Source: a virus
Reading direction: 5' to 3' (one strand)
IMG/VR virus record: IMGVR_UViG_3300048817_000012
Span: 1-38,823 of that record
Length of the DNA stretch: 38,823 nt
Below the pieces are notes generated by a model. That model was not told where the DNA came from. It worked only from the letters and a program-made list of their open reading frames with translations, and did no database searches. Positions 1,920-35,998 of the stretch are shown piece by piece. The position numbers and the translations under genes are program-made. Each line of letters opens with the position of its first letter. The stretch's first letter is position 1.

Positions 1920-2462
1920 TCAGTCATCCTTGTGGCAAAGGGCTGTCTCCGCGTTGCGGCGGCGGACTAGCCCGGTCAATACCCGTCCGTTGGCGTGAAC
2001 GTAACCCGTGAGCGCGTTGCATGCGGAGGGGTGATTTCGCTTGTAGGCCGACGACTGAGGCAGGAACGTAGTGTAGTCGCCGCCCGCATTCAAGTAGCGC
2101 GTCATCGCCCCGTGAGCGAAGATGCCAGCGCCGAGATTGTACGCGGCGTCCGTCATCGCCGCTTCGGTCTGCGCGCCCATGACGACGTGGATGTATTTCT
2201 TGATGCCGACGTTGTACTTCACCAAGCTCTGTTGAAGAAGATCACTGCACTGAGCCTTCGTGAACGTGGCGCGCATGGACGGGACAGGTCCGTCAGCTTT
2301 CGTCTCCCCATAGCACCACGTAATCGGGTGGCCGGTGCCGACGCGATCCACATATGGATGCGCCGCGTAGCCCTCGAAGCTGGCGCACATGGCGACGGTC
2401 ATCGCGCCCGCGACCGCCCATCCGGTTCTCTGCCGCGCCGTCTGTGGGACGAAGTTAGGCAT
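1920..2462 (-). CDS. endolysin, GH24 lysozyme with SAR-type N-terminus
   Basis: A 180-residue muramidase of the T4/P22/R21 lysozyme family, which cuts the glycan strand of peptidoglycan. The catalytic Glu is E30 in SFEGY, the Asp is D39 eight residues later, and the WCYGET motif that follows is typical. The segment between D39 and T48 is three residues longer than in most relatives I recall. Residues 14-29 form a weakly hydrophobic, Ala/Gly-rich helix directly before the catalytic Glu, as in signal-anchor-release endolysins such as R21. It overlaps the holin-like gene by 8 nt. Such endolysins are held inactive in the membrane until it is depolarised. Confidence 0.9.
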   Translation of the reverse strand: MPNFVPQTARQRTGWAVAGAMTVAMCASFEGYAAHPYVDRVGTGHPITWCYGETKADGPVPSMRATFTKAQCSDLLQQSLVKYNVGIKKYIHVVMGAQTEAAMTDAAYNLGAGIFAHGAMTRYLNAGGDYTTFLPQSSAYKRNHPSACNALTGYVHANGRVLTGLVRRRNAETALCHKDD

Positions 2463-2805
2463 CAGGGAGTCCCTTCTGGCCGGTGAAGCGCGCGAAGCAA
2501 ATCGCTATTGAGAAGCCGACGCTTATGAACATCATGCGCCACGCGCCGAGGTATTGCTGGAATGACGGGAGTGCAATCCAAAGGCCACCGACGACTGCCC
2601 AAAACAAGGCGATCTGTACGCTGCGCAGACGGTGCGCGAGACGCCACTCGGGCGCGGCGTGCGCGTCCATCCACAGGGACATGCGGCCCCGCGACGGGAA
2701 ATTCTGCCACACGCTCTCGATGCACCATCCTACAAAGCCGAGCGCGGCGATGCCGAGCACGGTGAGGAAGATGATACTGGCGAGAGTTGAGATTGCAGCG
2801 TCCAC
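2455..2805 (-). CDS. putative holin
   Basis: The 116-residue protein has three likely membrane segments (about residues 8-29, 64-82 and 88-106), with a polar loop containing several Arg and Trp after the first. The second half resembles small phage holins found before lysozyme genes in alphaproteobacterial phages. The start is a GTG at 2803-2805 with only a weak G-rich ribosome site. It overlaps the lysozyme gene by 8 nt, so the two are likely translated together. Holin function is inferred from topology and position. Confidence 0.65.
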   Translation of the reverse strand: MDAAISTLASIIFLTVLGIAALGFVGWCIESVWQNFPSRGRMSLWMDAHAAPEWRLAHRLRSVQIALFWAVVGGLWIALPSFQQYLGAWRMMFISVGFSIAICFARFTGQKGLPDA

Positions 2806-3056: not shown

Positions 3057-3131
3057 TGGCGGGAGAGGTAGGGATCGAACCCACGACGCGCGGCTTTGGA
3101 GACCGCCGCTCTACCACTGAGCTACACTCCC
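3057..3131 (-). tRNA. tRNA-Trp (CCA)
   Basis: Cloverleaf with 7-nt anticodon loop CTCCAAA, T-loop TTCGATC, G73 and encoded CCA. Acceptor stem has one T-T mismatch (position 6-67). Last tRNA of the array in transcription order. Confidence 0.95.
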
Positions 3132-3135
3132 GTGT

Positions 3136-3210
3136 TGGTACTACCGTGCAGAGTCGAACTGCAAAGACGCCGGTTCACAGCCGGGCCGCCTAACCGTCAG
3201 CATCGGTAGC
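3136..3210 (-). tRNA. tRNA-His (GTG), alphaproteobacterial type
   Basis: Anticodon loop CTGTGAA. G1 pairs with T72 as a wobble, the discriminator is A73 and the base before G1 is C, so no G-1 is encoded. Most bacteria have G-1 and C73; many alphaproteobacteria have A73 without G-1. This supports an alphaproteobacterial host. CCA is encoded. Position 8 is A rather than T. Confidence 0.93.
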
Positions 3211-3217
3211 GTAAAGT

Positions 3218-3294
3218 TGGTGCCGGTGCGAGGCATCGAACCCCGGACCTTCCGCGTATGAAACGGACGCTCTGGCCGACTGAGCTACACCGGC
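3218..3294 (-). tRNA. tRNA with CAT anticodon (Met-like elongator)
   Basis: Fully paired acceptor (G1-C72), anticodon loop TTCATAC, A73 and encoded CCA. G1-C72 argues against initiator tRNA. Elongator Met is most likely; tRNA-Ile2, whose C34 becomes lysidine, cannot be excluded. One of three CAT genes in the array. Confidence 0.9.
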
Positions 3295-3298
3295 AAAT

Positions 3299-3373
3299 TG
3301 GCGGGGGCAATAGGGATCGAACCTACGCGTGCGGGAGTCAAAGGCCCGTGCCTTACCTCTTGGCTATGCCCCT
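3299..3373 (-). tRNA. tRNA-Gln (TTG)
   Basis: Anticodon loop CTTTGAC, G73 and encoded CCA. Counting back from T8-A9 puts A1 opposite C72, an unpaired end like the weak 1-72 pair favoured by GlnRS. Six other acceptor pairs are intact. Confidence 0.92.
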
Positions 3374-3378
3374 TTATT

Positions 3379-3453
3379 TGGTGCCTCCGGCCGGTTCCGA
3401 CCCGGCTTTACCCGCTTGAAAGGCGGGCCTCCTAGCCACTAGAGGACGGAGGC
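3379..3453 (-). tRNA. tRNA-Glu (TTC)
   Basis: Anticodon stem CCCGC/GCGGG around loop CTTTCAA, G1-C72, A73, encoded CCA. 5 nt from the preceding tRNA-Gln. Confidence 0.95.
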
Positions 3454-3459
3454 GTTGAT

Positions 3460-3533
3460 TGGAGCGGGCACGGAGGATCGAACTCCGATCTTTCGCTTGG
3501 AAGGCGTTGGCTCTACCGTTGAGCTATGCCCGC
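3460..3533 (-). tRNA. tRNA-Gly (TCC)
   Basis: Loop CTTCCAA, perfect acceptor GCGGGCA/TGCCCGC, U73 as usual for tRNA-Gly, encoded CCA. Confidence 0.95.
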
Positions 3534-3544
3534 GTGATATGAAA

Positions 3545-3573
3545 CGTCGGGTATGATCGTGTTATGCCCGACG
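3545..3573. repeat. spacer hairpin between tRNA-Ser and tRNA-Gly
   Basis: Inverted repeat with 10 bp arms (one G-T pair) and a 9 nt loop, filling one of the few long spacers in the array. Possibly a processing signal or weak terminator; no T-run follows on the minus strand. Confidence 0.6.
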
Positions 3574-3576
3574 AAT

Positions 3577-3664
3577 TGGCGGAGAGTGGAGGGATCGAAC
3601 CTCCGCATCGCTTGCGCGATGTATAGGGTAGCAGCCTACTGCCTTGCCGCTCGGCCAACTCTCC
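3577..3664 (-). tRNA. tRNA-Ser (GCT)
   Basis: Class II tRNA with a long variable arm (stem around GCGCAAGC), loop CTGCTAC, G73 and encoded CCA. Reads AGC and AGT codons. Confidence 0.95.
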
Positions 3665-3711
3665 ATGCGCGCTCGCGTATAAAGATCACATATGCGTGGT
3701 CGCGTATATTT

Positions 3712-3788
3712 TGGTGCTCCCGGGAGGAGTCGGACCCCCGACGACCCGGCTTAGAAGTCCGGCGCTCTGTCCGCTGAGCTACGGGAGC
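3712..3788 (-). tRNA. tRNA-Arg (TCT)
   Basis: Loop CTTCTAA in a CCGGA/GCCGG stem, perfect acceptor, encoded CCA. It reads AGA and AGG, usually rare in GC-rich hosts. The 47 nt spacer after tRNA-Ser(GCT) repeats CGCGTAT. Confidence 0.95.
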
Positions 3789-3792
3789 AAAT

Positions 3793-3858
3793 TGGAGACG
3801 ACGGGGTGAGTCGAACGGGTTTGCAGCCCGCTGCCTGTTACCGTTCGGCCACGTCGTC
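3793..3858 (-). tRNA. tRNA-Cys (GCA), shortened, lacks half of the T-arm
   Basis: Only 66 nt with CCA. Acceptor GACGACG/CGTCGTC, D-arm, anticodon stem GCGGG/CCCGT with loop CTGCAAA, and U73 (a Cys identity element) are intact. Between the anticodon stem and the acceptor only 11 nt remain instead of about 22: the variable loop and the 5' strand of the T-stem are gone, although TTCGACT survives. It may be a decayed gene or a tRNA working without a normal T-arm. Confidence 0.8.
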
Positions 3859-3866
3859 ATAGGAAT

Positions 3867-3940
3867 TGGCTGGCCCTCAAGGACTTGAACCTCGATCAGC
3901 GGAGTCAGAGTCCGCCGTCCTACCATTGAACGAAGGGCCA
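3867..3940 (-). tRNA. tRNA-Gln (CTG)
   Basis: Loop CTCTGAC, stem GCGGA/TCCGC, weak U1-A72 end pair and G73 as expected for GlnRS, encoded CCA. Confidence 0.95.
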
Positions 3941-3942
3941 AT

Positions 3943-4018
3943 TGGTGAACCCGAGAGGGGTCGAACCTCTAACCGCCCGGTTCGTAGCCGGGTGCTCTTT
4001 CCATTGAGCTACGGGTCC
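3943..4018 (-). tRNA. tRNA-Arg (ACG)
   Basis: Loop CTACGAA, stem CCGGC/CCGGG region, A34 expected to become inosine through the host TadA. A73 and encoded CCA. Only 2 nt from the preceding tRNA-Gln. Confidence 0.95.
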
Positions 4019-4020
4019 GT

Positions 4021-4097
4021 TGGCGCGGCGAGGGAGATTTGAACTCCCGTTACCCGCGTGAGAAGCGGGCTTCCTGACCATGCTAGAAGATCGCCGC
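4021..4097 (-). tRNA. tRNA-Glu (CTC)
   Basis: Stem CCCGC/GCGGG around loop TTCTCAC, perfect acceptor, G73, encoded CCA. Second tRNA-Glu, reading GAG. Confidence 0.94.
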
Positions 4098-4104
4098 GTG
4101 GAAA

Positions 4105-4180
4105 TGGCTGGCAAGGCAGGGATCGAACCTGCGAACCTCCGGTTAACAGCCGGGTCGAATTACCACTCTCGCACTTGCCA
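4105..4180 (-). tRNA. tRNA-Asn (GTT)
   Basis: Loop CTGTTAA, U1-A72 pair, G73, T-loop TTCGATC, encoded CCA. Confidence 0.95.
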
Positions 4181-4189
4181 ATAAAAGAT

Positions 4190-4265
4190 TGGTGGACCTG
4201 CGGGGACTCGAACCCCGACTGCACGGTATGCAAAACCGGCGTGCTCCCGTTATCACTACAGGCCC
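4190..4265 (-). tRNA. tRNA-Ala (TGC)
   Basis: Loop TTTGCAT, A73, encoded CCA. The acceptor has a G3-T70 wobble pair, the main AlaRS identity element, which confirms the assignment. Confidence 0.95.
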
Positions 4266-4269
4266 GTAT

Positions 4270-4345
4270 TGGTGGCAAGGGGAGGACTTGAACCTCCGAC
4301 GCCGGGCTTTTCAGACCCGCGCTCTACCATCTGAGCTACCTCGCC
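4270..4345 (-). tRNA. tRNA-Phe (GAA)
   Basis: Loop CTGAAAA, acceptor with two G-T or A-T variants only, A73 and encoded CCA. Confidence 0.95.
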
Positions 4346-4371
4346 GTAACCTGAAACCTAAAAACGTCAAA

Positions 4372-4445
4372 TGGCGCGGATGCCGGGAATTGAACCCGGG
4401 CCTCATGAGTGGCACTCACGAACTCGACCGTCAAGCTACATCCGC
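4372..4445 (-). tRNA. tRNA-Gly (GCC)
   Basis: Loop GTGCCAC, stem CGTGA/TCATG, perfect acceptor, encoded CCA. The discriminator is G, whereas bacterial tRNA-Gly usually has U73. Confidence 0.9.
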
Positions 4446-4449
4446 GTGT

Positions 4450-4486
4450 GAGTTATAGATTTTCAGCGTTGAGTTATAGGTTTTCA
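4450..4486. repeat. short tandem repeat in tRNA spacer
   Basis: Two 16 nt units (4450-4465 and 4471-4486) that differ at one base, spaced 21 nt apart, fill the 42 nt spacer before tRNA-Gly. AT-rich compared with the flanking tRNAs. Confidence 0.7.
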
Positions 4487-4487
4487 T

Positions 4488-4573
4488 TGGTGGAGAAGGC
4501 AGGACTCGAACCTGCGAAGGCGTTAGCCGCCGGATTTACAGTCCGGCCCCTTTGCCACTCGGGCCACTTCTCC
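4488..4573 (-). tRNA. tRNA-Tyr (GTA)
   Basis: Class II tRNA with long variable arm, loop CTGTAAA, A73, encoded CCA. Its first bases GGAG directly follow the AACAAC spacer seen elsewhere in the array. Confidence 0.95.
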
Positions 4574-4578
4574 GTTGT

Positions 4579-4663
4579 TGGTTGCGCGAGCGCGGATTTG
4601 CACCGGCGTCGGCAGCTTATGAGGCTGCATAGGGGCTTGGTTACCTACTCCTACTATCGCGCA
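4579..4663 (-). tRNA. atypical tRNA with CAT anticodon and enlarged D region
   Basis: The 7 bp acceptor TGCGCGA/TCGCGCA, anticodon stem GCAGC/GCTGC with loop CTCATAA, A73 and CCA are clear. The stretch between acceptor and anticodon stem is 28 nt instead of about 19, and can fold as GTAGG/CCTAT with a 16 nt loop. The T-stem has a bulged C and the T-loop begins TG rather than TT. It could be Met or Ile2, or a decayed gene. Confidence 0.7.
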
Positions 4664-4666
4664 AAG

Positions 4667-4759
4667 TGGAGGAAGGGGAGTGGATTTGAACCCTCGAAAC
4701 GCTTTCACGTTTACTGGTTTTCGGGACCAGCGCCTTAAGCCTGACTCGGCCACCCTTCC
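4667..4759 (-). tRNA. tRNA-Ser (CGA), several unusual bases
   Basis: Class II tRNA with long variable arm and CTGGT/ACCAG anticodon stem. The loop is CCCGAAA, so the almost invariant U33 is C. The discriminator is U rather than the G73 usual for Ser, and the T-stem has a bulged A. Acceptor GGAAGGG/CCCTTCC is perfect and CCA is encoded. Function is uncertain. Confidence 0.8.
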
Positions 4760-4832
4760 GTAATTGCGCAGTTTTGTTTAGGACTTTCGTCGGCGGATGG
4801 TCTGCAACACCCGACCGGGACCCCCGGCTATT

Positions 4833-4907
4833 TGGCGTTCCCGGGGTGAGTTGAACACCCGCCTCCCGCTTCGGAGGCGGGTGATCTATCCATTAAACTA
4901 CGGGAAC
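4833..4907 (-). tRNA. tRNA-Arg (CCG)
   Basis: Loop CTCCGAA in stem CCCGC/GCGGG, G73, encoded CCA. Its nucleotides 8-10 (TAG) are the stop codon of the upstream RusA-like gene. A 73 nt spacer without recognisable features separates it from tRNA-Ser(CGA). Confidence 0.95.
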
Positions 4908-5221
4908 ATAATTCCTATCTTCTCAAGAAAAACAATCTGTCGGTCGTCCTTCAACAACGTCGGACCTTTGCCGGTCTTGCCATCGAGCGCCTGAAACAGC
5001 GCGGTGACGAGGTTGTCAAGATCGGGTCCGGTCGGGTCGATGAACAACGCCGACAACGAAATTTGATGCGACATCTGTTCGAGGCCCGCTTCTTGAGCCG
5101 CGCGCCAAATCTCGACGCGGTATTGTTCAAGCACCTTGCGGTGGATGCGCCGATGCGGCGCGCCACGCACATTAGCGATCAAGAGACGCCGACGATGGTC
5201 GTACTGCAACTGCACGCGCAT
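4898..5221 (-). CDS. RusA-like Holliday junction resolvase inside the tRNA array
   Basis: The 107-residue protein matches the small RusA family (about 120 residues), dimeric nucleases that cut Holliday junctions and branched DNA during replication or packaging. The acidic motif D67-L-D69-N70 and the D92-D93-x-x-I motif near the C-terminus fit the metal-binding site; the usual Lys after DxDN is replaced by Thr73. The ATG at 5221 has GGAG 9 nt upstream, just after the CCA of the previous tRNA. The stop codon TAG lies inside the following tRNA-Arg and equals its nucleotides 8-10. Family call is good; activity not certain given the missing Lys. Confidence 0.75.
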   Translation of the reverse strand: MRVQLQYDHRRRLLIANVRGAPHRRIHRKVLEQYRVEIWRAAQEAGLEQMSHQISLSALFIDPTGPDLDNLVTALFQALDGKTGKGPTLLKDDRQIVFLEKIGIMFP

Positions 5222-5239
5222 TATCACGCACTCCGTTGT

Positions 5240-5314
5240 TGGTGGTCCCGGCAGGACTTGAACCCGCAACCCGGCCGTTATGAGCGGCTGGCTCTACCAT
5301 TGAGCTACGAGACC
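5240..5314 (-). tRNA. tRNA with CAT anticodon (Ile2- or Met-like)
   Basis: Loop CTCATAA, stem GCCG/CGGC, G1-C72, A73, encoded CCA. The variable and T-arm region resembles bacterial tRNA-Ile2 more than elongator Met, but this is a visual comparison. If Ile2, host TilS would have to make lysidine at C34. Confidence 0.88.
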
Positions 5315-5326
5315 CGCAAGAGGAAT

Positions 5327-5404
5327 TGGTCGGGGCGGCAGGATTTGAACCTGCGTCCTCCTCGTTCCGAACGAGGCCGTCTGACCGGGCTGGCTTACGC
5401 CCCG
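5327..5404 (-). tRNA. tRNA-Pro (CGG)
   Basis: Loop TTCGGAA in stem CCTCG/CGAGG, C1-G72 end pair typical of bacterial tRNA-Pro, A73, encoded CCA. Confidence 0.95.
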
Positions 5405-5407
5405 AAA

Positions 5408-5437
5408 GTTATACTCATTTTGCGGATTGAGTATAAC
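5408..5437. repeat. perfect hairpin between nuclease gene and tRNA-Pro
   Basis: Two perfect 10 bp arms (GTTATACTCA / TGAGTATAAC) around a 10 nt loop, AT-rich, lying just before the 5' end of tRNA-Pro and after the nuclease gene stop. Could be a processing site or the trace of an insertion boundary. Confidence 0.65.
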
Positions 5438-5471
5438 CAGAATTGGCGCGACTGGCGGGTGCTGACCCGAA

Positions 5472-5885
5472 TTACCACTCGTATCCGCCTGCGAACCAAC
5501 AATCCTTTTTCTGGCCATTCTTTGCTGGCGTCAGGCGCAACGAGATTTCAGTTTTCCCGCCCCACGTATACGGCGGGAGCCTGTAGACTTTGCCGGTTTG
5601 CGGCAAGTAAACCATGACGCAATCAACTTCAAGCGGGCTGTATTTTCGTTGACCGCCGCGTCTATGGTTCGTTTGAGTTTTTACGCGAACCGATCCGTTA
5701 CTCGCCGGTTTTCCATCCGCGTATTTTACTTGCACACGCGAGAGCTTCCCGCCCTCGTCGATGATTAAATCGTACCGATCAAAATCACCGACTGGCCGAC
5801 TTACAGTGATCCGTTTTTCAAATGCACGGAAGATGACTTTCATCAAGGCTAACTCGCCTTTGAGACTGGTTTCGGACACTGGCAT
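5472..5885 (-). CDS. PD-(D/E)XK nuclease, homing-endonuclease-like
   Basis: The 137-residue protein has the small PD-(D/E)XK layout of the family that includes the intron-encoded I-Ssp6803I: E11 in the first helix, D39 in DRYDLII, then Q52-V-K54 in a beta strand, followed by basic residues likely to touch DNA. It sits between tRNA-Asp and tRNA-Pro, and I-Ssp6803I is also known from a tRNA gene. The ATG at 5885 follows the CCA of tRNA-Asp by 2 nt; the Shine-Dalgarno AGGAG, 7 nt upstream, is the acceptor stem of that tRNA, so tRNA maturation would cut it off. Substrate unknown; a defence or decay role is possible. Confidence 0.75.
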   Translation of the reverse strand: MPVSETSLKGELALMKVIFRAFEKRITVSRPVGDFDRYDLIIDEGGKLSRVQVKYADGKPASNGSVRVKTQTNHRRGGQRKYSPLEVDCVMVYLPQTGKVYRLPPYTWGGKTEISLRLTPAKNGQKKDCWFAGGYEW

Positions 5886-5887
5886 TT

Positions 5888-5961
5888 TGGCGCTCCTAGG
5901 GAGAATTGAACTCCCGTTCTCCGCTCGACAGGCGGGCATTCTACCATTAAATTATAGGAGC
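5888..5961 (-). tRNA. tRNA-Asp (GTC)
   Basis: Loop CTGTCGA, perfect acceptor GCTCCTA/TAGGAGC, G73, encoded CCA. The 3' acceptor strand doubles as the ribosome site of the nuclease gene. Confidence 0.95.
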
Positions 5962-5987
5962 CTCAAGAGTGAGCTACAGCCGCAATT

Positions 5988-6071
5988 TGGTGCGAACAAG
6001 GGGACTCGAACCCCTAACCCTTGCGGGCAACGCTTCTCAGGCGTTTGCGTAAACCATTCCGCCATGTTCGC
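5988..6071 (-). tRNA. tRNA-Leu (GAG)
   Basis: Class II with long variable arm, stem AACGC/GCGTT and loop CTGAGAA, A73, encoded CCA. Confidence 0.95.
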
Positions 6072-6076
6072 ATTGT

Positions 6077-6152
6077 TGGTGGGCACTCGGGGGATCGAAC
6101 CCCGGACGTTCGGATTAAGAGTCCGACACTCTACCAACTGAGTTAAGTGCCC
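6077..6152 (-). tRNA. tRNA-Lys (CTT)
   Basis: Loop CTCTTAA, perfect acceptor GGGCACT/AGTGCCC, A73, encoded CCA. Nucleotides 8-10 (TAA) form the stop codon of the upstream small gene. No TTT tRNA-Lys is present. Confidence 0.95.
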
Positions 6153-6355
6153 GGGAAGAAGTGCTCCATGATGACGGTCATGGCGCTGAAAGTGTCCTCG
6201 ACCTTGCGTACCTGCTCCCCGAGACCGGCATCCGGGGGAGGAGGAAATGGTGAACCTGTGTGGTACTGCCCCACTTGCGGACGGGTTAAAAGGCCGTTGC
6301 CGAACTTCTCTGGCTTTACGCTACAGGTCCGGCATCGTTTGAGTGGATCGCTCAT
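6143..6355 (-). CDS. small unknown protein inside the tRNA array
   Basis: The 70-residue product has one CxxC near the N-terminus, a Pro-rich middle (FPPPP) and a hydrophobic C-terminal stretch. The ATG has GGAG 8 nt upstream and overlaps the stop of the preceding small gene (ATGA), so the two are translationally coupled. The stop TAA is nucleotides 8-10 of tRNA-Lys. The codons for the CxxC contain 12 bases (6320-6331) identical to the 5' end of tRNA-Ile (6657-6668), perhaps a tRNA remnant. No family recognised. Confidence 0.6.
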   Translation of the reverse strand: MSDPLKRCRTCSVKPEKFGNGLLTRPQVGQYHTGSPFPPPPDAGLGEQVRKVEDTFSAMTVIMEHFFPGT

Positions 6356-6576
6356 TTTGTTTGCTCCGTTGTTTGGTGGACCAGTGAGGAATTGAACCTC
6401 CATGCGGGCCCCGTCGAGCCTTCGCCGCGCGCTATTTGATCCAACGCGCTGTTGATCTGCCCGCATATTTCTTCCGCCGTGGCCCGGCGCGTGCCGGGGG
6501 ATATGTGGAAGTTGCGGGTGCGCCGGTTCGGGTCATCAAACAAGCGCGCCATCAGTTTCTCTTGCTCGGGTCCCAT
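6352..6576 (-). CDS. small unknown protein whose C-terminus is encoded by a tRNA fragment
   Basis: The 74-residue protein has a charged, probably helical body. Residues of about 58-68 are encoded by a 30 bp copy of the tRNA-Ile 3' end, read through in frame. The ATG at 6576 is preferred because AGGAG lies 7 nt before it; another ATG at 6582 is too close to that site. The gene begins 17 nt after the CCA of tRNA-Ile and ends in an ATGA overlap with the next gene. No function can be assigned. Confidence 0.6.
   Translation of the reverse strand: MGPEQEKLMARLFDDPNRRTRNFHISPGTRRATAEEICGQINSALDQIARGEGSTGPAWRFNSSLVHQTTEQTK
6374..6403 (-). repeat. duplicated 3' end of tRNA-Ile
   Basis: Thirty bases identical to 6594-6623, the CCA, acceptor and T-arm part of tRNA-Ile(GAT). 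The remainder of a tRNA is missing. The two copies are direct repeats 220 bp apart, the pattern left when an element enters at a tRNA 3' end. Confidence 0.85.
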
Positions 6577-6593
6577 GTTCATTCTCCTGTTGT

Positions 6594-6667
6594 TGGTGGA
6601 CCAGTGAGGAATTGAACCTCCATCGAGCGGTTATCAGCCGCTTGCTCTACCGTTGAGCTACAGGTCC
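6594..6667 (-). tRNA. tRNA-Ile (GAT)
   Basis: Loop CTGATAA with GCGG/CCGC stem, perfect acceptor GGACCTG/CTGGTCC apart from one wobble, A73, encoded CCA. Its 3' 30 bases are repeated at 6374-6403. Confidence 0.95.
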
Positions 6668-6672
6668 GTGAT

Positions 6673-6747
6673 TGGTGGGTCGTCGATGAATTGAACATCG
6701 GACATCCGCCATGTCAAAGCGGCGCTCTACCACTGAGCTAACGACCC
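6673..6747 (-). tRNA. tRNA-Val (GAC)
   Basis: Loop TTGACAT in stem CCGCT/GGCGG, perfect acceptor GGGTCGT/ACGACCC, A73, encoded CCA. Confidence 0.93.
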
Positions 6748-6753
6748 GTAAAA

Positions 6754-6828
6754 TGGTAGGCGCGGGGAATTTTGAAATCCCGACATCCGGTATGTAAAAC
6801 CGGCGCTCTGCCTCTGAGCTACGCGCCT
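6754..6828 (-). tRNA. tRNA-Val (TAC)
   Basis: Loop TTTACAT in stem CCGGT/ACCGG, acceptor AGGCGCG/CGCGCCT, A73, encoded CCA. An 81 nt spacer without recognised features lies upstream. Confidence 0.94.
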
Positions 6829-6909
6829 ATAGGACCACACGACTGCACACAAGTGGGTCCCCGTCCGCTCGCCTACCTGTGCCGGTTACGAGCCGCGACG
6901 TTTTCGATT

Positions 6910-6987
6910 TGGTGCCCAAGGCAGGACTCGAACCTGCATGTGAGCCGCTTTTGAGGCGGCGGCCTTTACCAGTTTGGCTACAAGGGC
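6910..6987 (-). tRNA. tRNA with Leu anticodon CAA but short variable loop
   Basis: Stem GCCGC/GCGGC around loop CTCAAAA gives anticodon CAA (Leu, TTG codon). The variable loop is only 6 nt, whereas tRNA-Leu is normally class II with a long arm, as in the GAG and CAG genes nearby. The acceptor has one T-T mismatch. A73 and CCA present. Which synthetase charges it is unclear. Confidence 0.82.
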
Positions 6988-6994
6988 GTTTGTT

Positions 6995-7081
6995 TGGTGC
7001 GCGTGGCAGGACTTGAACCCGCACGGGAGTTTACCCCGACGCATTCTGAGTGCGTTATGTCTACCGTTCCATCACACGCGC
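6995..7081 (-). tRNA. tRNA-Leu (CAG)
   Basis: Class II with long variable arm, stem ACGCA/TGCGT and loop CTCAGAA, perfect acceptor GCGCGTG/CACGCGC, A73, encoded CCA. Starts 1 nt after tRNA-Thr(GGT). Confidence 0.95.
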
Positions 7082-7082
7082 G

Positions 7083-7154
7083 TGCCGCTAGGGTGAGTCG
7101 AACACCCGACATCTTCCGTACCAAGGAAGCGGTCTACCACTGGCCTATAGCGGC
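7083..7154 (-). tRNA. tRNA-Thr (GGT), CCA not encoded
   Basis: Stem CTTCC/GGAAG around loop TTGGTAC, perfect acceptor GCCGCTA/TAGCGGC and A73. The next base is followed at once by the 5' end of tRNA-Leu, so no CCA is encoded; it is the only tRNA of the 33 that must get CCA from the host enzyme. Confidence 0.93.
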
Positions 7155-7159
7155 GTAGT

Positions 7160-7234
7160 TGGTGCTCGGTGGAGGGATCGAACCCCCGCATCCTCGTTAC
7201 AAATGAGGCGTTCTACCACTGAAACTAACCGAGC
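7160..7234 (-). tRNA. tRNA-Thr (TGT)
   Basis: Loop TTTGTAA, acceptor GCTCGGT/ACCGAGC perfect, A73, encoded CCA. The top pair of the anticodon loop (31-39) is an A-C mismatch. Confidence 0.93.
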
Positions 7235-7240
7235 GAAATT

Positions 7241-7316
7241 TGGTGCCGATGCGAGGGCTTGAACCCCGGGCCTCCTGAGTACGAAACAGGCGCTCTACCA
7301 TCTGAGCTACATCGGC
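7241..7316 (-). tRNA. tRNA-Thr (CGT), first of the array
   Basis: Loop TTCGTAC in stem CCTGT/TCAGG (one T-T mismatch), perfect acceptor GCCGATG/CATCGGC, A73, encoded CCA. First tRNA in transcription order. Confidence 0.93.
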
Positions 7317-8529: not shown

Positions 8530-8743
8530 AGTAGCACTGCTTCTTCCGGGCGATACCGGCGACCCATTCAATACGGTTATCAGGCGAGCTAACGTGGCTG
8601 TTGAAATAAGATGTCGCGGTGCGCTTTGCATTGTCAATGGAGCCTCCGATTTGGTCAATCACAAAGAACGTCTCCTCGCCGGGAGTATTGCGCGTGTTCT
8701 CCCACCGTCCTTCGATCAGGTAGTAGCCACGGCCTCCGTTCAC
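8489..8743 (-). CDS. unknown 84-residue protein of the sugar operon
   Basis: A soluble protein, 84 residues, with mixed composition and several aromatic residues. The start is GTG at 8741-8743 with GGAG 6 nt upstream, overlapping the stop of the fucose synthase-like gene by 4 nt (GTGA). No domain is recognised. The tight overlap on both sides shows that it is translated with the sugar genes. Confidence 0.6.
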   Translation of the reverse strand: MNGGRGYYLIEGRWENTRNTPGEETFFVIDQIGGSIDNAKRTATSYFNSHVSSPDNRIEWVAGIARKKQCYYGRNPHITFRITG

Positions 8744-9696
8744 GCCGGTCTCCCCTGCATGAGTTGCTTATGCCCGATGTTGGCTTGTTCCCCGGTGTAC
8801 CACTCCCACGTTTCATGCAGGCCGCGCTCTAGCGAGTATTGACATTTGAACCCGGTCTCGTTCAACCGACTCAGATCGGCGGCGCGGAAAATTTGACCGT
8901 TTGGCTTGAGCGTGTCCCACTTGATGTTCGTGACCCCGCTGATTTTGGAGAGCGTCTCTACAAGCTGTCGGATCGAATAGACTTTCCCGTCGCCGACGTT
9001 GATCGCGTCTTGAACGGACTCCATCACGACTATCGAGAGGCGCGCCAAATCCTTGACGTACAAGAAATTGCGCTCCGCCGAGCCGTCGCCCCAAATGGTG
9101 ACGGGAGTGCCGTCGCGCTTCGCCTCGTAGAATTTGCGGATGAGCGAAGGCACCACATGGCCGTTGACCGGATCGAAGCGGTCGTTCGGCCCGTACAGAT
9201 TGCACGATACGATGTAGGCCCAATCAATGCCGTAGCTTTCCCCGTAGGCTTCGAGCATCGCGAGCATTCCGCGCTTGGCGTGGGCGTAGCCACTCTCGGA
9301 CGAGTGCGGCCGACCGTCGAAAATATCGCGTTCGTTGAACGGCAACTTCGGCGGGAAGGGGTAAACCGCGTTCGTGCCCATGACGGTGATCTTCTCGACG
9401 CCGACACAGTGTGCGGCTTCGATGACGTTCGTGTTGATAAGCGTGTTCTCAAGGTACGAGCGTCCCTGATTATTCATGTTGCCCATGATGCCGAACACGC
9501 GAGCGGCGGAGTGGAACAGGTACTTCGGCTGCACCGCTTTGAACAGGCCATACGTCTCCGAATAGCTGCGAAGGTCGCAAACTTGACTCGACGTGCCGAC
9601 GACTGCGGTGTAGCCGCGCTCGGCGAACAGGTTGCGCATGGCGGTGCCGACGAGGCCCTTGCTGCCGGTGACGAGTATCGTGTCTGACTTGTTCAT
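8740..9696 (-). CDS. fcl: GDP-L-fucose synthase-like epimerase/reductase
   Basis: The 318-residue protein is a short-chain dehydrogenase of extended type: TGSKGLVG dinucleotide motif (residues 11-18), YxxxK in GYAHAK, and the NLYGPND/GHVVPSLI segments typical of GDP-fucose synthase. That enzyme turns GDP-4-keto-6-deoxymannose, the product of the gmd enzyme encoded nearby, into GDP-L-fucose. In the enterobacterial enzyme a GSSCIYP motif carries the catalytic Ser and the Cys used for epimerisation; here it reads GTNAVYP, so Thr replaces Ser and Ala replaces Cys, while the His of the HV-P motif is kept. It may therefore reduce without full epimerisation. The start overlaps the previous stop (ATGA). 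Confidence 0.85.
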   Translation of the reverse strand: MNKSDTILVTGSKGLVGTAMRNLFAERGYTAVVGTSSQVCDLRSYSETYGLFKAVQPKYLFHSAARVFGIMGNMNNQGRSYLENTLINTNVIEAAHCVGVEKITVMGTNAVYPFPPKLPFNERDIFDGRPHSSESGYAHAKRGMLAMLEAYGESYGIDWAYIVSCNLYGPNDRFDPVNGHVVPSLIRKFYEAKRDGTPVTIWGDGSAERNFLYVKDLARLSIVVMESVQDAINVGDGKVYSIRQLVETLSKISGVTNIKWDTLKPNGQIFRAADLSRLNETGFKCQYSLERGLHETWEWYTGEQANIGHKQLMQGRPA

Positions 9697-10598
9697 GCTT
9701 TTACTCCCGGGGCTCTTACTTGTTGTACGCGGTTGGCGTGTCGTTTGTTTGCCATACGTTGCCCGTGTTGCGAGGGTTGCCCGCTACGTGCGCGAGCGAT
9801 TTGGGCTTCCGCCGCCATTAGCCGAGTGCGTGATCGCGATTGTTCTTTGGACCACTGCATAAGTGGTGGGCACGACGGGGGTTTCGCGGAGCGGTTACCA
9901 GCGAGGTAAAACCCGCGTGCTTGCATGAGGGGTTGCCAGAATTGCGGCCCCTTGACGGAATGTATCATGACCGCGCCGCGTTGTTGGACCGCCCGCCATG
10001 CCTGCTCGAAGGCGTTTGTGCTGCCGGAGACTGGACCAGTGAACCCGTCGTTAAAGTTCTTCCCCGGGACTCCGGCCTTGACCGCCAATTGTACCATGTA
10101 GTGATCTATGAACGGCAACGTCGGGTTCATGTCGAGATTTTTCTCCATGACCGGAGCGAGCAACCGCTCAATCACTTTTCGGCTCATGAAATACGGCGGC
10201 TGAAAAGCGAGGCGCGGGAACCCGTCCATATAGAAGCCGTGCTCGCGCCCCTGCATATCATCTTTGACAAGGTTCGACCAAAGGACATCCTCCGCGTAGA
10301 GGTACTTCGGGATTTCGGGGGAGAGACAAACGCTGTCGCTGTCGTGACAGAGAAAATAATCTTCGGGGTACGTCAATAGAAGCTTCATCTGTTCCCACTG
10401 GCGGTCAAGCGAAAGCTGCCCGGTGTACTGGCGTTGCCCGGCGAAACGGCTTTCGACGCCCTGAATTGCGACTTGCGAGTCCACGGGCGATAAGATCGTG
10501 ACCGGGCACTCATGGTGCAAAAGGATCGGGAGTGCCCCGATCACTTGAGGGGCGTCGCCCGCGTAACAGCACACCGCTACTCTTGTGCTCGGGTTCAT
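9693..10598 (-). CDS. glycosyltransferase-like protein, paralogue 1
   Basis: This 301-residue protein and its upstream neighbour are clear paralogues: both open with MNP-TR-AVCCY, have CPVTILSP, a LLTYPE segment, a DSD motif in DSDSVCL, a PPYF or APWFLSRK stretch and end near IHSVK. DSD looks like a DxD motif that binds the metal and nucleotide sugar in GT-A enzymes. This copy has an extra Arg/Lys/Gln-rich tail (about residues 250-301). ATGA overlap with genes on both sides. Donor may be the GDP-sugar made by the flanking genes. Confidence 0.65.
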   Translation of the reverse strand: MNPSTRVAVCCYAGDAPQVIGALPILLHHECPVTILSPVDSQVAIQGVESRFAGQRQYTGQLSLDRQWEQMKLLLTYPEDYFLCHDSDSVCLSPEIPKYLYAEDVLWSNLVKDDMQGREHGFYMDGFPRLAFQPPYFMSRKVIERLLAPVMEKNLDMNPTLPFIDHYMVQLAVKAGVPGKNFNDGFTGPVSGSTNAFEQAWRAVQQRGAVMIHSVKGPQFWQPLMQARGFYLAGNRSAKPPSCPPLMQWSKEQSRSRTRLMAAEAQIARARSGQPSQHGQRMANKRHANRVQQVRAPGVKA

Positions 10599-11380
10599 GA
10601 CTTCTTCCGATTTTGATACGCCACCAACAACTCTTTCGCAGCGATTGAGTTTTTCACCGAATGGATCATGTTCGCACCGTTGTTGACATATTCAAGCGCC
10701 TGCGCAAAGCTCGCGTTGTAGATTTGAGCAAGCTCGGGGCAGATAGGGTCACCTTCGACCCCGGCCCCAAATGGCGTAAAAAATTTCCCGGTCGCCTCGT
10801 CGTACCGTCCTGAAATGGGGCCGAGATAGCGATCACGAAAGCCCTTGTGCGGGAGCTTCGCCGCGTATGTGAGTTGAACGAGATAGTTGTCTACCCACTC
10901 CAACTGAGGGATGTGTGGGACTTGAGGTGCGACCGCGACAAAAGCCTCGATAGTTTTCCGGGACAAGAACCACGGAGCTTGAAACGACAGAGGCGGGCAG
11001 TCGGGGGGAAAGCTATCTACCGTGGTCTCCATTGCGCGACCCTCGTTCGTCCAGACGATGTGCGGCTCCGCGTAGAGATAGTCCGGGATTTTCGGATCGA
11101 GGCACACGCTGTCGCTTTCGTGCATGAAGAAATGGTTTTCGGGATACGTGAGCAAGATTTTCAGATGCTCCAAATGCCGTGCGTGTGCGTCGGGACCTGA
11201 CCGACCGCGCAACCCGGCGTGCCGGTTATCGACGCCCGGGTGGTTGATGACGACTTTAGAATTCTCCGGCGACAGGATGGTGACCGGGCATTGATGATGC
11301 AAATAGAAGTCAAGCGATTGTTCGACCTGTTGCTTGTCCCCCTCATAGCAGCACACTGCAATTCTCGTATCCGGGTTCAT
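10595..11380 (-). CDS. glycosyltransferase-like protein, paralogue 2
   Basis: At 261 residues it shares the fold signature of the next gene: a short first strand (RIAVCCYEGD), CPVTILSPENS, LLTYPENHFF, a possible DxD in HESDSVCLD, and a C-terminal MIHSVK. It lacks the basic tail. The pair probably arose by tandem duplication and then diverged to about 35-40 percent identity as judged by eye. The start overlaps the stop of the 52-residue gene (ATGA). Catalytic function and acceptor are unknown. Confidence 0.65.
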   Translation of the reverse strand: MNPDTRIAVCCYEGDKQQVEQSLDFYLHHQCPVTILSPENSKVVINHPGVDNRHAGLRGRSGPDAHARHLEHLKILLTYPENHFFMHESDSVCLDPKIPDYLYAEPHIVWTNEGRAMETTVDSFPPDCPPLSFQAPWFLSRKTIEAFVAVAPQVPHIPQLEWVDNYLVQLTYAAKLPHKGFRDRYLGPISGRYDEATGKFFTPFGAGVEGDPICPELAQIYNASFAQALEYVNNGANMIHSVKNSIAAKELLVAYQNRKKS

Positions 11381-11535
11381 TTGCGCTCCCCCGCATCCAC
11401 CAACGCTTCGCAGATCGCTTGTTCCAGCCGGTCGGCGCGGCGACCCGATATGATAATGCCGCCGCCATTTATAGCCCGGTAATCGGACAGGATGTTGCGC
11501 GCGATTTCCGCTTCCTTCGCGTGAACTTTATTCAT
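11377..11535 (-). CDS. 52-residue protein between gmd and the glycosyltransferase pair
   Basis: A small gene of 53 codons. Its ATG at 11533-11535 has GAGG 7 nt upstream, it overlaps the end of gmd by 8 nt and ends in an ATGA overlap with the next gene. The peptide is charged and probably helical at both ends, with a Gly/Ile-rich centre (NGGGIII). Overlaps at both ends with correct ribosome site spacing make it a real gene. No family known to me. Confidence 0.65.
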
Positions 11536-12541
11536 GGGCCGCCCTCATATCGCTCGCGACCATTTCTCGGACGAGTTCGTTGAGGCCGGTCTTGTGACGC
11601 CAGCCCAACTTGCGCGCCTTGGTCGGGTCCCCCAACAGTTTGTCAATCTCGGTCGGGCGAAAATAGCGCGGGTCTACCTGCACCAACTTGCGTTTGGTTT
11701 TTGTGCATATTCCACACTCTTGTGCGCCCTCTCCGAGCCATTTGATCTTGACCCCGATTTCCGCGAACGCCAACTCGACAAACTCGCGCACGGTATGAGT
11801 CTCGCCAGTCGCAAAAACGTAATCGCCCGGCGCGGGCTGTTGCAGCAGGAGCCACATGCCCTCCACGTAATCGCGGGCGTGGCCCCAATCGCGCAGGGCG
11901 TCCAGATTTCCGAGGTAGAGACAATCTTGTTTGCCCGCGTGGATGTCCGCTATGGCCCGCGTTATCTTGCGCGTCACGAATGTTTCGCCGCGCCGAGGGC
12001 TCTCATGATTGAACAGGATGCCGTTTGAGGCGTGCATCCCGTAGGCTTCGCGATAGTTGACCGTGATCCAATGGGCGTAGAGCTTCGCCGCTCCGTAGGG
12101 GCTGCGAGGATGGAACGGCGTGGTCTCGGATTGCGGAGTCGGAGTGTTGCCGTACATCTCAGAAGTTGACGCCTGATAGAACCGAACATCCTTCAAGCCC
12201 AACGTGCGGATACCTTCGAGCAGGCGCAGCGTGCCGATGCCGTCCGCATTCGCGGTGTACTCGGGCGTCTCAAAGCTGACGTGAACATGAGACTGCGCAG
12301 CGAGGTTATAGATTTCAGTCGGCTGGATTTCTTGCAGGAGCCGAGTAAGGTTGGTGGCGTCCGTTAGGTCGCCGAAATGCAAGTGGAATTTTTTGTGGCC
12401 GATAAGGTGGGTGATGCGTCCGGTATTGAACGACGACGACCGACGCTTGACGCCGTGAACCTCGTAGCCTTTTTCCAATAGGAGTTCGGCGAGATAGCTG
12501 CCGTCCTGTCCGGTGACCCCCGTAATCAATGCCTTGCTCAT
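11528..12541 (-). CDS. gmd: GDP-mannose 4,6-dehydratase
   Basis: The 337-residue enzyme has the full family signature: [13 protein letters not shown] (NADP-binding GxxGxxG, residues 7-19), [16 protein letters not shown], the catalytic [16 protein letters not shown] with Tyr and Lys, [20 protein letters not shown] (substrate loop) and FRPTEID near the end. It turns GDP-mannose into GDP-4-keto-6-deoxymannose, the common precursor of GDP-fucose, GDP-rhamnose and related sugars. Length is close to that of bacterial Gmd. The ATG overlaps the previous stop (ATGA). It is probably paired with the reductase 2 kb downstream in the same operon. Confidence 0.95.
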
Positions 12542-13401
12542 GCCTTGACTCCCTTCCCTCGGATTGCGTCCCGGATCGCCAGCACTCTTGGCTGTCGTGA
12601 TCGGATTTGCGGGCGCGCTCGCGGATGATGGTGCCGCACCGCCGCATCGAATTCCAGTTCGCCGATTTCGGCACGCACCCACGGCCATGACCGCGCCAGC
12701 AAACCCAATTTCGAGGTACGAGTGACGACGTAGATGTTGTCTATCACGAGCCGTGTGCGGCGGATAACCTCGGCATGATCGAGTGCGAGCGGCCAGTTGA
12801 AGATGTCGTGATAGCCGAAACTCGGTCCCGCGAGCGCGCGAGGACGTGTCGGGGGATAGTGCTCGTATGAGAATTGGGTCGCAACATCCTCCGGGGCCCA
12901 CTTCGCGCCGATTTCGTTTTCGAGTCGGCGGCGATTGGTGCGAGCGTATTGCATGTCGGTCACGATACCGAAAGAGGCACGATGGTCGTAGACGTAATCC
13001 GCCATCCGCTTTGACAGCAACATGAAGCCGCCGTTGCCGACCGTCATGCTATCGCGCTGGCCGACCCAAGGAGCGCCGATGTAGTCGTAATTCAGGAAGT
13101 CGTCGCGCCACATACTCACGTCGCGGAGACCACCGTCCCATTCCATGAGAAGTGCGTGCGATGTCGTGATCGCGTGTGCCGCCTCCATGTAGTAGAATGC
13201 ACCCTGCCTCGTTTTGTCGGGCCAGTTCGGAACTTGGATGTACGTGGCCGGGACCGGGATGCCGATAAGCTCGGGCCTGTCCGTATAGATGAGGACGCCG
13301 CCGAATTGGACCTTGAGCACGATGTCGGTGAGAGTGAGCCGCATCAATTCGTGGCAGCGAGTCTCGACCACAACGAGGGTTACTTCGGGCAAATTGAGCA
13401 C
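12538..13401 (-). CDS. DUF5672-like putative glycosyltransferase
   Basis: The 287-residue protein has the pattern of the DUF5672 group: an N-terminal [11 protein letters not shown] strand, EWDGGL region, a [15 protein letters not shown] motif and [12 protein letters not shown]. These are found in proteins of bacterial and viral glycan loci and are thought to be glycosyltransferases of GT-A type. The last 40 residues are Arg/His-rich. It starts with GTG and has GGAGG 8 nt upstream. A promoter of the common late type lies just before it, so it heads the sugar operon with gmd. Confidence 0.7.
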
Positions 13402-34657: not shown

Positions 34658-35839
34658 TTATGGACCAGTGTTCGCGGTTGCCGCCGTGGTTCCAAAGACC
34701 GCCAAGTTCTGACCGTCGCTCGGGTCCGCCGTCCATGCGTAGCCGCTGGTGGACTCGCGCGTAATCAGGCGGGAGAGCTTGATCTGCTTGCGTTCCGGGA
34801 ACACGCGGACAAAGGAGCCGCTGGCCGAAAGCTGACCGTTCGTCGGGCCGCCTTCATAGTGAGGCGAAGAACCGACCCACGCGTGGCCGACCGGGTGGAT
34901 GACCCACTCGACGCGGTTGAACAGGGTGTCCGAGCCCGCGCCGTTGCCGCGCGACGGGTAACGGAACACTTCGGTCGGGACGACCGGGGTGCCGACGCCG
35001 AGTCGGAACGAGGCCGGTCCAACGAGCCAAGTGTGGTAGAGGCCGGAGCCGCCGCCAGTGTTGGCGTTGTTGGACGTGTCGCCCGCCGGGTTGGGCATTC
35101 CGTCGTCCACGATGACACGGCGACCCAAAAACACCGGGATGTTGATGTGTCCTTCCGCGTCCGGGATGAAGTCGATCAGGTTATTCTTCTGAGCCTTCGA
35201 GTAGACGATGGAGTGCATGAACACCGCCGTCACATCTTCGGCCGCGTCGCCGAGCAACGTGCAGGCGTCAATGAACGCCTCCGCGTTGAAGTCGGTGACG
35301 CCCGAGCTATAGCCCGAGGCAGAAATGTCATGAGTCAGGTCGTCCTGATTGCCGTACTGAGCGGCAAGGCCCAAGCCGCCCGGGGTAGCACCCGCGTTGG
35401 CCGAGGCGTTGGTGAAGAACACGCCGTTGGCTACGGCGACGAAAGCACGCTGTAGACGACGGACCCAATAGTCGGAGACGCGCGATGCGATGGACTGCAT
35501 CGGGTCGGCACCGGCCAAGGCCGTCGCAAGGCGCATCGTGCTCCACGAACTATTACGGGAAAGTCGAACCGCGACTTCGGCTGACGTTCCAGTGATGTTC
35601 GGGGTCGAGTCGTAATTGGGGTCGTCGGAGCCGACGTTTTCCGCCGGGTCACCGATGTCCTGCCAAGACGGGACCGTGAAAGTCAAGCCGCCGCCAGCGA
35701 GGAGGTTGTCCAAGAAGTCGTCGCGAGCCGCGATGCCCGACTGGACGATGGCGGTTTTCTCCATCGTCAACTGTTGGGTGTACGGCGTAAAGATCGCGGG
35801 GACGATAACGTCTGAGATTGTGGTGGATACGTTAGCCAT
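34658..35839 (-). CDS. major capsid protein
   Basis: The 393-residue protein has the features of the HK97-fold capsid group of the gp13/gp20 coat type: a disordered start (MANVSTTISDVIVPAIFTPY), FTVPSWQDIGDP, WVRRLQRAFVAVANGVF, then DLTHDISASGYSSGVT, MHSIVYSKAQKNNLIDFIPD and RRVIVDDGMPNPAG near the middle, which in this family build the A-domain and P-domain. The ATG at 35839 has GGAGG 7 nt upstream; a longer frame to 35998 has no such site. It is flanked by the scaffold-like gene upstream and hairpins downstream. Highly expressed. Confidence 0.9.
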   Translation of the reverse strand: MANVSTTISDVIVPAIFTPYTQQLTMEKTAIVQSGIAARDDFLDNLLAGGGLTFTVPSWQDIGDPAENVGSDDPNYDSTPNITGTSAEVAVRLSRNSSWSTMRLATALAGADPMQSIASRVSDYWVRRLQRAFVAVANGVFFTNASANAGATPGGLGLAAQYGNQDDLTHDISASGYSSGVTDFNAEAFIDACTLLGDAAEDVTAVFMHSIVYSKAQKNNLIDFIPDAEGHINIPVFLGRRVIVDDGMPNPAGDTSNNANTGGGSGLYHTWLVGPASFRLGVGTPVVPTEVFRYPSRGNGAGSDTLFNRVEWVIHPVGHAWVGSSPHYEGGPTNGQLSASGSFVRVFPERKQIKLSRLITRESTSGYAWTADPSDGQNLAVFGTTAATANTGP

Positions 35840-35982
35840 GGCACTGCCTCCAAGGGGTGAAACTGGATAGCTCCGGCCTCCCCATGGAGGTATCGGGTAT
35901 TTTGGTCCGGGCGCATCGAGCACTGCCATGAGGCTCAAGAAACGATGGGACCTGATTTCGATGCTGGTATGATTAACGCGTT

Positions 35983-35998
35983 TTGCTTCGCGAAGCAA
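35983..35998. promoter_or_regulatory. 16 bp perfect palindrome, operator-like
   Basis: TTGCTTCGCGAAGCAA is its own reverse complement. It overlaps the -35 part of a possible promoter (spacer 16 nt, -10 TTAATC) and is flanked by ACGCG on both sides. A dimeric repressor or activator could bind here to control the capsid gene. Confidence 0.5.

Follow-up and report, generated by a model that had tools for sequence, protein, structure and literature searches.

The window, i.e., the whole 38,823-nt stretch of viral DNA analysed here (IMG/VR record IMGVR_UViG_3300048817_000012), carries a large tRNA array which is probably best understood as a tailed-phage tRNA operon serving self-supply with CCA-encoding tRNAs, a set acquired piecemeal, spread in part by a homing nuclease and belonging to a phage of a host with A73-type tRNA-His. 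The array sits between tail/sugar genes and the holin-endolysin cassette of a siphovirus fragment, and the location of the flanking phage genes on the same strand supports this explanation. The main landmarks are the following.

1920..2805, minus strand: endolysin (phage lysozyme) gene and holin-like gene, downstream of the array
3057..7316, minus strand: tRNA array
8740..12901, minus strand: NAD-dependent epimerase and GDP-mannose dehydratase genes, upstream of the array
34658..35998, minus strand: major capsid protein gene, the marker used for phage placement

Position and orientation had been given correctly in an earlier note on this DNA, with all tRNA genes on the minus strand. That note had read 33 tRNAs by eye, and its isotype tally indeed sums to this number, whereas ARAGORN, proposed there as a check, accepts 31 (7.3–7.7 genes per kb for the two counts) and misses the eye-read tRNA-Cys and one CAT tRNA. 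The Rfam tRNA model retrieves 29 genes above the gathering threshold when scanning the window and 31 when searching the own record, the latter set lacking tRNA-His but including the shortened tRNA-Cys, so that 30 genes are common to ARAGORN and the own-record search. The count by eye thus corresponds to the ARAGORN genes plus the shortened tRNA-Cys and a CAT tRNA rejected by both programs. As E-values of single tRNAs reach 1.5e-13 in the window scan, the array is far beyond chance. With 31 tRNA genes in 4.26 kb, it also qualifies as a viral tRNA gene cluster, for which about 15 or more tRNA genes and a density of two or more per kb are expected (PMC6409571). Such clusters, with 15–37 tRNAs, are reported for 228 of 1,824 tRNA-bearing viral genomes, eight of them covering all 20 isotypes, and for genomes of 72–617 kb (PMC6409571). 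Hence, the array belongs to a known kind and represents rare but already known phage equipment; the earlier statement that such sets occur in only some large phages holds for the minority of viruses concerned and is roughly right for genome size. Relatives of the present phage reach 127 kb.

The earlier note had also claimed coverage of all 20 amino acids, and a near-complete set is indeed encoded. The twentieth, however, depends on the damaged tRNA-Cys, a probable pseudogene judging from its missing 5' strand of the T stem, while well-formed genes cover 19 amino acids by ARAGORN and 18 when only genes passed by both scanners are counted; a 20-isotype set is not required for cluster membership. 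The CCA end is encoded in 32 of the 33 genes, as had been noticed before. The exception is tRNA-Thr(GGT), the orthologue of which in the related contig G003 retains CCA. Several individual genes deserve closer description.

3136..3210, minus strand: tRNA-His(GTG) with G1-U72, A73, no G-1 and a short D stem, found by ARAGORN only
3218..3294, minus strand: CAT-anticodon tRNA resembling an altered tRNA-Thr(CGT) in identity comparison
3795..3858, minus strand: shortened tRNA-Cys(GCA), found in the Rfam own-record search only
about 4577..4664, minus strand: CAT-anticodon tRNA-like gene with large D loop, failing both scanners
6594..6667, minus strand: intact copy of tRNA-Ile(GAT), found by ARAGORN and Rfam
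7082..7316, minus strand: tRNA-Thr trio (GGT, TGT, CGT), in an order common to G003

The tRNA-Cys match of the own-record search (3796-3858) has a score of 31.4 bits, with the cut-off at 29, and the gene is absent from both the ARAGORN result and the window scan. For the CAT gene at 4577..4664, a cloverleaf is obtained as predicted single-strand fold. The other CAT tRNA (3218..3294) looks like a changed tRNA-Thr(CGT), being 83% identical to the G003 tRNA-Thr(CGT) and 79% to that of the array itself, compared to 71% for the best tRNA-Met and a within-array median of 59%. Besides, odd T arms are read in Glu-TTC (GTC replacing TTC), Val-TAC (with T facing T at positions 53-61) and Ser-CGA (29.6 bits with Rfam). 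These irregular genes (Cys, CAT at 4577, Glu-TTC, Val-TAC, Ser-CGA and His) count against the self-supply explanation, as does the fact that most capsid relatives are without such an array. Matches to plastid-ycf2 and YrlA in the RNA-family scan were under their cut-offs and overlapped tRNAs, and were ignored.

According to the self-supply explanation, the array would provide a nearly complete tRNA set with CCA pre-encoded, so that, once expressed and charged, it could keep phage translation going under conditions that dilute, degrade or cut the host's own tRNAs, a presumed selective benefit. Scans for promoters and terminators gave counts close to shuffled expectation. The set would have been assembled and reshuffled piecemeal, single tRNAs being gained, lost, truncated and re-purposed.

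Codon use is consistent with self-supply. The anticodons match 17 of the 20 top codons of the phage, and 47 of the 61 codons, accounting for 86% of 9,065 codons, are readable by phage tRNAs. Codons matched by own tRNAs are commoner in the phage (mean RSCU of 1.24 versus 0.78, P 5e-4). That the matched codons are those preferred by the phage would also agree with codon compensation, in which the tRNAs supply codons used more by the phage than by its host, a trend reported for XacN1 versus its host (PMC5852040). However, a GC-rich genome is probable for both phage and host, the codons served by the phage tRNAs are ordinary, common ones, and the account of mycobacteriophage arrays reports no such trend (PMC10264068). 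A GC-rich host tRNA set might match the phage codons equally well, and the anticodon fit falls short of mismatch repair. Compensation is considered unlikely.

Within the array, the following ORFs are interspersed with the tRNA genes.

4898..5224, minus strand: 108-aa ORF, weakly RusA-like (Holliday junction resolvase; PHROG 140, E 0.0013; no Pfam match)
5472..5885, minus strand: PD-(D/E)XK (PDDEXK_5) homing-endonuclease homologue with Pfam, PDB and PADLOC matches
6143..6355, minus strand: 70-aa ORF with ATGA overlap with the 74-aa ORF, no family match
6352..6576, minus strand: 74-aa ORF ending in codons that duplicate the tRNA-Ile 3' end, no family match

The RusA-like ORF directly follows tRNA-Met (5240-5314). 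The nuclease matches Pfam PDDEXK_5 (4e-26) as sole domain, a GIY-YIG domain not being among its matches, and is assigned to the I-Ssp6803I family (PDB 2ost; 1.1e-7 with phmmer, 3.1e-22 by profile) by sequence and by the retained catalytic-type D...QxK; PADLOC also labels it 'homing endonuclease' (3.7e-8). Single-sequence structure prediction was poor (mean pLDDT of 50). I-Ssp6803I is encoded within a group I intron, whereas the start codon of the array nuclease lies 2 nt past the CCA of an intact tRNA-Asp and the gene is hence free-standing; no intron family was over threshold in RNA-family scans of the window. Free-standing homing genes occur in other families. Where the nuclease ORF has its 3' end, about 5443-5471 resembles a tRNA, but a tRNA remnant could not be demonstrated there. 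The home of I-Ssp6803I is described as a tRNA-fMet gene (PMC1995217).

In 26 of the 29 phage and archaeal-virus records opened, the distance from the nuclease homologue to a tRNA gene is no more than 250 bp, against an expectation of at most 3.5 (an upper bound), and in 20 of the 29 it is no more than 25 bp (expectation of 1.9). Exceptions are the PDDEXK_5 members of phages JD05 and HSd1, which adjoin a DNA polymerase gene and lack any nearby tRNA; one further member is about 450 bp from its nearest tRNA. Phage PA-SR01, which encodes three tRNAs and a PF11645 protein, may also be exceptional. Lists of defence-system domains include PF11645 as well. Scanning viral contigs with the window's own nuclease or with alignment A2 returned no relative; alignment A3 gave four, all with tRNAs in the locus, one (L228) probably being phage My1 again. 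An additional pattern match, L127, had no tRNA, and searched plasmids gave no match. The PDDEXK_5 homologues seem to be a homing family that is free-standing and linked to tRNAs, a counterpart of SegB in T-even phages. SegB, a homing endonuclease of the GIY-YIG family, is likewise free-standing and associated with phage tRNA genes, and has been shown to amplify tRNA segments (PMC13096335). No published description of a tRNA-linked free-standing PD-(D/E)XK homing family was found in our literature search. Near-complete isotype sets in clusters of 15–37 tRNAs, some with endonuclease genes inside, are also reported for cluster C mycobacteriophages and other viruses (PMC6409571, PMC5966550, PMC10264068), but these endonucleases are described as HNH and the hosts and phage lineages are others.

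The array nuclease would probably cut the tRNA-gene sequence of genomes without the nuclease gene, and repair would then copy the nuclease plus neighbouring tRNAs. Whether I-Ssp6803I-type nucleases of bacterial and archaeal viruses constitute a free-standing homing family that is widespread, arose in parallel to SegB and usually targets tRNA genes, and whether they are a general engine of array gain, swap and amplification, appears evenly balanced. Found beside tRNA genes in very different viruses, the family may help arrays to grow and spread. Should its members indeed cut tRNA genes, laboratory phages already carrying the nuclease, such as the T5-like SelmaRatti and mycobacteriophage Wilder, would allow direct tests of array growth, and the SegB finding would then apply to archaeal viruses and to a second enzyme family unrelated to the first.

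The same linkage, together with the nuclease in the array, the partial tRNA copies and the broken Cys and CAT genes, could also mean that selfish homing endonucleases and tRNA-directed insertions produced most of the array as a by-product, to little benefit of the phage. This is improbable, since the anticodons fit the phage codons and are spread over nearly all amino acids instead of repeating a few, and since the Thr trio changes in a stem-preserving manner. G003 shows Thr-CGT, Thr-TGT and Thr-GGT at its contig edge in the same order as the array and with 89-92% identity; it shares the first three tRNAs before its contig ends, leaving only these comparable with a close relative. Stem changes between both trios are paired, e.g., A-U in place of G-C within the T stem of Thr-GGT, suggesting that folding is under selection. 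An origin of the array from host DNA, or from misassembly onto a phage contig, can be virtually dismissed. In its favour, the record is linear and fragmentary, and the array is not covered by any second, near-identical contig; against it, phage genes lie on both sides on the same strand, the G003 trio is found at a like distance from its capsid gene and related contigs bear smaller arrays.

How and why some phages collect dozens of tRNAs is an old open question, and with the present array an uncultured phage lineage, probably infecting alphaproteobacteria, becomes available for it. Capsid-clade relatives have 0–11 tRNAs, 23 of 33 records, many of them fragments, being without any; as the lineage thus spans no detected tRNAs to about thirty, gain and loss are comparable. 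The signature of the phage tRNA-His (no G-1, G1-U72, A73) points, by the reported clade rule (PMC3937112), to a host of the Rhizobiales/Rhodobacterales/Caulobacterales type. It matches all four Rhizobiales/Rhodobacterales-type genomes examined and differs from the three others, so that an alphaproteobacterium possessing the unusual A73 tRNA-His is the most likely host. Counting against this, C7 and U15-G48, traits reported for tRNA-Tyr and tRNA-Glu of the clade (PMC3937112), are not seen in the phage Tyr and Glu genes. The Sphingobium phage Lacusarx (KY629563), with a 130-kb genome and an alphaproteobacterial host, likewise bears a single run of 25 annotated tRNAs, several being 72-83% alike to those of the array, but differs in gene order and in an ordinary C73-type tRNA-His.

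The homing endonuclease, the Thr-derived CAT tRNA and a tRNA-Ile duplication were absent from the earlier note. In the latter, the 3' end of tRNA-Ile recurs as a 30-nt exact repeat (6373-6402 and 6593-6622). A permuted tRNA-Ile was considered, as on the minus strand the 3' piece at 6373-6402 precedes a 24-nt, 79% 5'-like match (6308-6331); this match is short and in a coding frame and the anticodon arm is absent, and the repeat is consequently kept as a duplication.

Inside the row of tRNA genes at 3057–7316 (minus strand), an ORF at 5472–5885 (minus strand), beginning 2 nt past the CCA of tRNA-Asp, encodes a homologue of PD-(D/E)XK homing endonucleases matching the PDDEXK_5 family (PF11645) at 4e-26. 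The structure 2ost, which we take to be I-Ssp6803I, is matched at 1.1e-7 by phmmer and at 3.1e-22 with a 17-member profile, and the D...QxK motif is retained, with D39 and K54 invariant and Q52 nearly invariant across the 17 sequences. I-Ssp6803I is assigned to the PD-(D/E)XK class in PMC1995217, its home being a tRNA-fMet intron.

For relating the nuclease to tRNA genes elsewhere, phages were searched by tblastn (38 records, of which 18 were opened, picked for variety, the other 20 being mostly near copies), and searches with two of the homologues gave 50 and 24 records, from which 11 new ones were opened. A tRNA lies within 250 bp of the nuclease gene or match in 26 of the 29 opened phage and archaeal-virus records and within 25 bp in 20, compared to upper bounds of 3.5 and 1.9 records expected by chance (tails 2e-24 and 2e-19). 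The bounds were computed from the tRNA count of each record, and related phages are not independent. Groups outside these 29 records include BUCT640 and Felixounaviruses, and for Chester, one of the 29, the tRNA was already visible in the match listing before opening. Since the hosts are diverse (Streptomyces, Mycobacterium, Arthrobacter, cyanobacteria, enterobacteria, Vibrio, Acinetobacter, Enterococcus and haloarchaea) and identity of the window nuclease to the 16 other proteins in the alignment is 23–34%, the linkage is not accounted for by descent from a single cluster. The nuclease gene overlaps the next tRNA in at least six records, while in LNA6 its reading frame is broken early. Exceptions are LR756508, with the nearest tRNA about 450 bp away, and the genes of JD05 and HSd1 (L235 1480–1887 and L238 1477–1905), which adjoin a DNA polymerase gene and have no neighbouring tRNA; hence, targets within the PDDEXK_5 family may not all be of one kind.

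Among known tRNA-linked endonucleases, SegB of T-even phages is a GIY-YIG enzyme that amplifies tRNA segments (PMC13096335), and HNH genes are described for mycobacterial and mycobacteriophage arrays in PMC6409571, PMC5966550 and PMC10264068. No description of the PD-(D/E)XK family tied to phage tRNA genes was found in searches of the open-access literature, which is weak evidence of novelty. The nuclease is likely a new variant among tRNA-linked homing endonucleases, a kind already known. The array itself belongs to a known kind of phage tRNA array; of the two, the link between nuclease and tRNA genes deserves more attention.

Over the span 3057–7316, ARAGORN finds 31 tRNAs and Rfam 29 above gathering in the window scan or 31 in its own-record search, the sets disagreeing at His, Glu-TTC and Cys. 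The 33 counted by eye in the earlier note correspond to the 31 of ARAGORN plus a shortened Cys and one CAT tRNA. In the Cys gene the acceptor and anticodon arms are intact, but the 5' side of the T stem is missing; the CAT gene at 4577–4664, whose lowest-energy fold is a cloverleaf, is rejected by both scanners. Consequently, the proposed coverage of every amino acid is insecure, amounting to 19 of the 20 by ARAGORN and 18 when counting genes accepted by both. CCA is indeed encoded in 32 of the 33. In tRNA-Thr(GGT), it has been lost where the gene abuts tRNA-Leu(CAG) (7075–7090); the orthologue in G003, an uncultured relative from the same capsid clade, has it.

In 27 ORFs (9,065 sense codons), mean RSCU is 1.24 for codons that a phage anticodon matches exactly (n = 28) versus 0.78 for others (n = 31; P 5e-4), and of the 25 codons preferred in the capsid gene, 19 have a match. 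With standard wobble, phage tRNAs can read 86% of codons; those unread include UCN except UCG, CCN except CCG, UUA, CUA, AAA, AUA, GCU, GCC and the Cys codons, of which AUA could be gained through lysidine modification of a CAT tRNA. This supports broad self-supply of tRNAs by the phage; the codon data do not show compensation of a host deficit.

The window comprises the entire IMG/VR record, a linear fragment of 38,823 bases with all main genes on the minus strand, running from scaffold, capsid, head-tail, tail and tape-measure genes via sugar-nucleotide genes and the tRNA array to holin-like and endolysin genes. Genes around and within the array are:

8740–12901: epimerase and GDP-mannose 4,6-dehydratase, alphaproteobacterial type, adjoining phage tail genes, perhaps for sugar decoration
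7700–7981, minus strand: short ParB-like domain protein (PHROG 1033, E 9.5e-7), adjoining the array
4898–5224, minus strand: candidate RusA-like resolvase, flanked by the tRNA-Arg and tRNA-Met genes and matched only weakly (PHROG 140, E 0.0013)

As to the host, the phage tRNA-His has G1-U72 and A73 with G-1 not encoded, and according to PMC3937112 the combination of A73 and a missing G-1 is characteristic of Rhodobacteraceae, Rhizobiales, Caulobacterales and Hyphomonadaceae. Among the seven of nine searched genomes in which tRNA-His was read (the Bradyrhizobium and E. coli genes were not among the matches listed), G1-U72 and A73 occur in Mesorhizobium, Hyphomicrobium, Paracoccus and Parvibaculum (4/4), and G-1 and C73 in Arenibaculum, Azospirillum and Novosphingobium (3/3). 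Unlike the window phage, Lacusarx (KY629563), a phage of Sphingobium, has a tRNA-His of ordinary type. Relatives of the GDP-mannose dehydratase are mostly alphaproteobacterial. A host in the A73 clade is therefore suggested as likely rather than certain, because the Tyr and Glu tRNA traits reported for this clade in PMC3937112 were not seen in the phage Tyr and Glu genes, and the tRNA-His has a short D stem and is not accepted by Rfam.

Identity of the capsid protein to those of PaMx25-like and Roseobacter phages is about 53%. With four 100% copies set aside, it reaches at most 86% to the proteins of uncultured relatives, whose records extend to 127 kb. tRNAs were found in 10 of 33 scanned relatives, drawn from 80 capsid loci, with a maximum of 11, these counts being minima since many records are fragments. 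The G003 contig stops three tRNAs into its array (Thr-CGT, Thr-TGT and Thr-GGT, ordered as in the window and 89–92% identical), and in alignments read by eye the differences are largely in loops or paired, as in:

Thr-GGT, T stem: A-U for G-C
Thr-CGT, anticodon stem: C-G for U-A
Thr-TGT, D stem: G-C for U-A, plus one unpaired change beside it

This pattern argues for selection on folding of the trio. Best matches of the other array tRNAs in more distant relatives are mostly 60–80%, so that much of the set was probably acquired separately. The CAT tRNA at 3218–3294 looks like a Thr tRNA with altered anticodon, as it is nearer to Thr-CGT (83% in G003, 79% in the window) than to the Met tRNAs, of which the best of those compared reaches 71% (median within the array 59%). 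Directly after the intact tRNA-Ile, a 74-aa ORF overlapping the following ORF by ATGA ends in a second exact 30-nt copy of the tRNA-Ile 3' end, and this segment (6352–6622, minus strand) looks like an insertion that duplicated part of tRNA-Ile.
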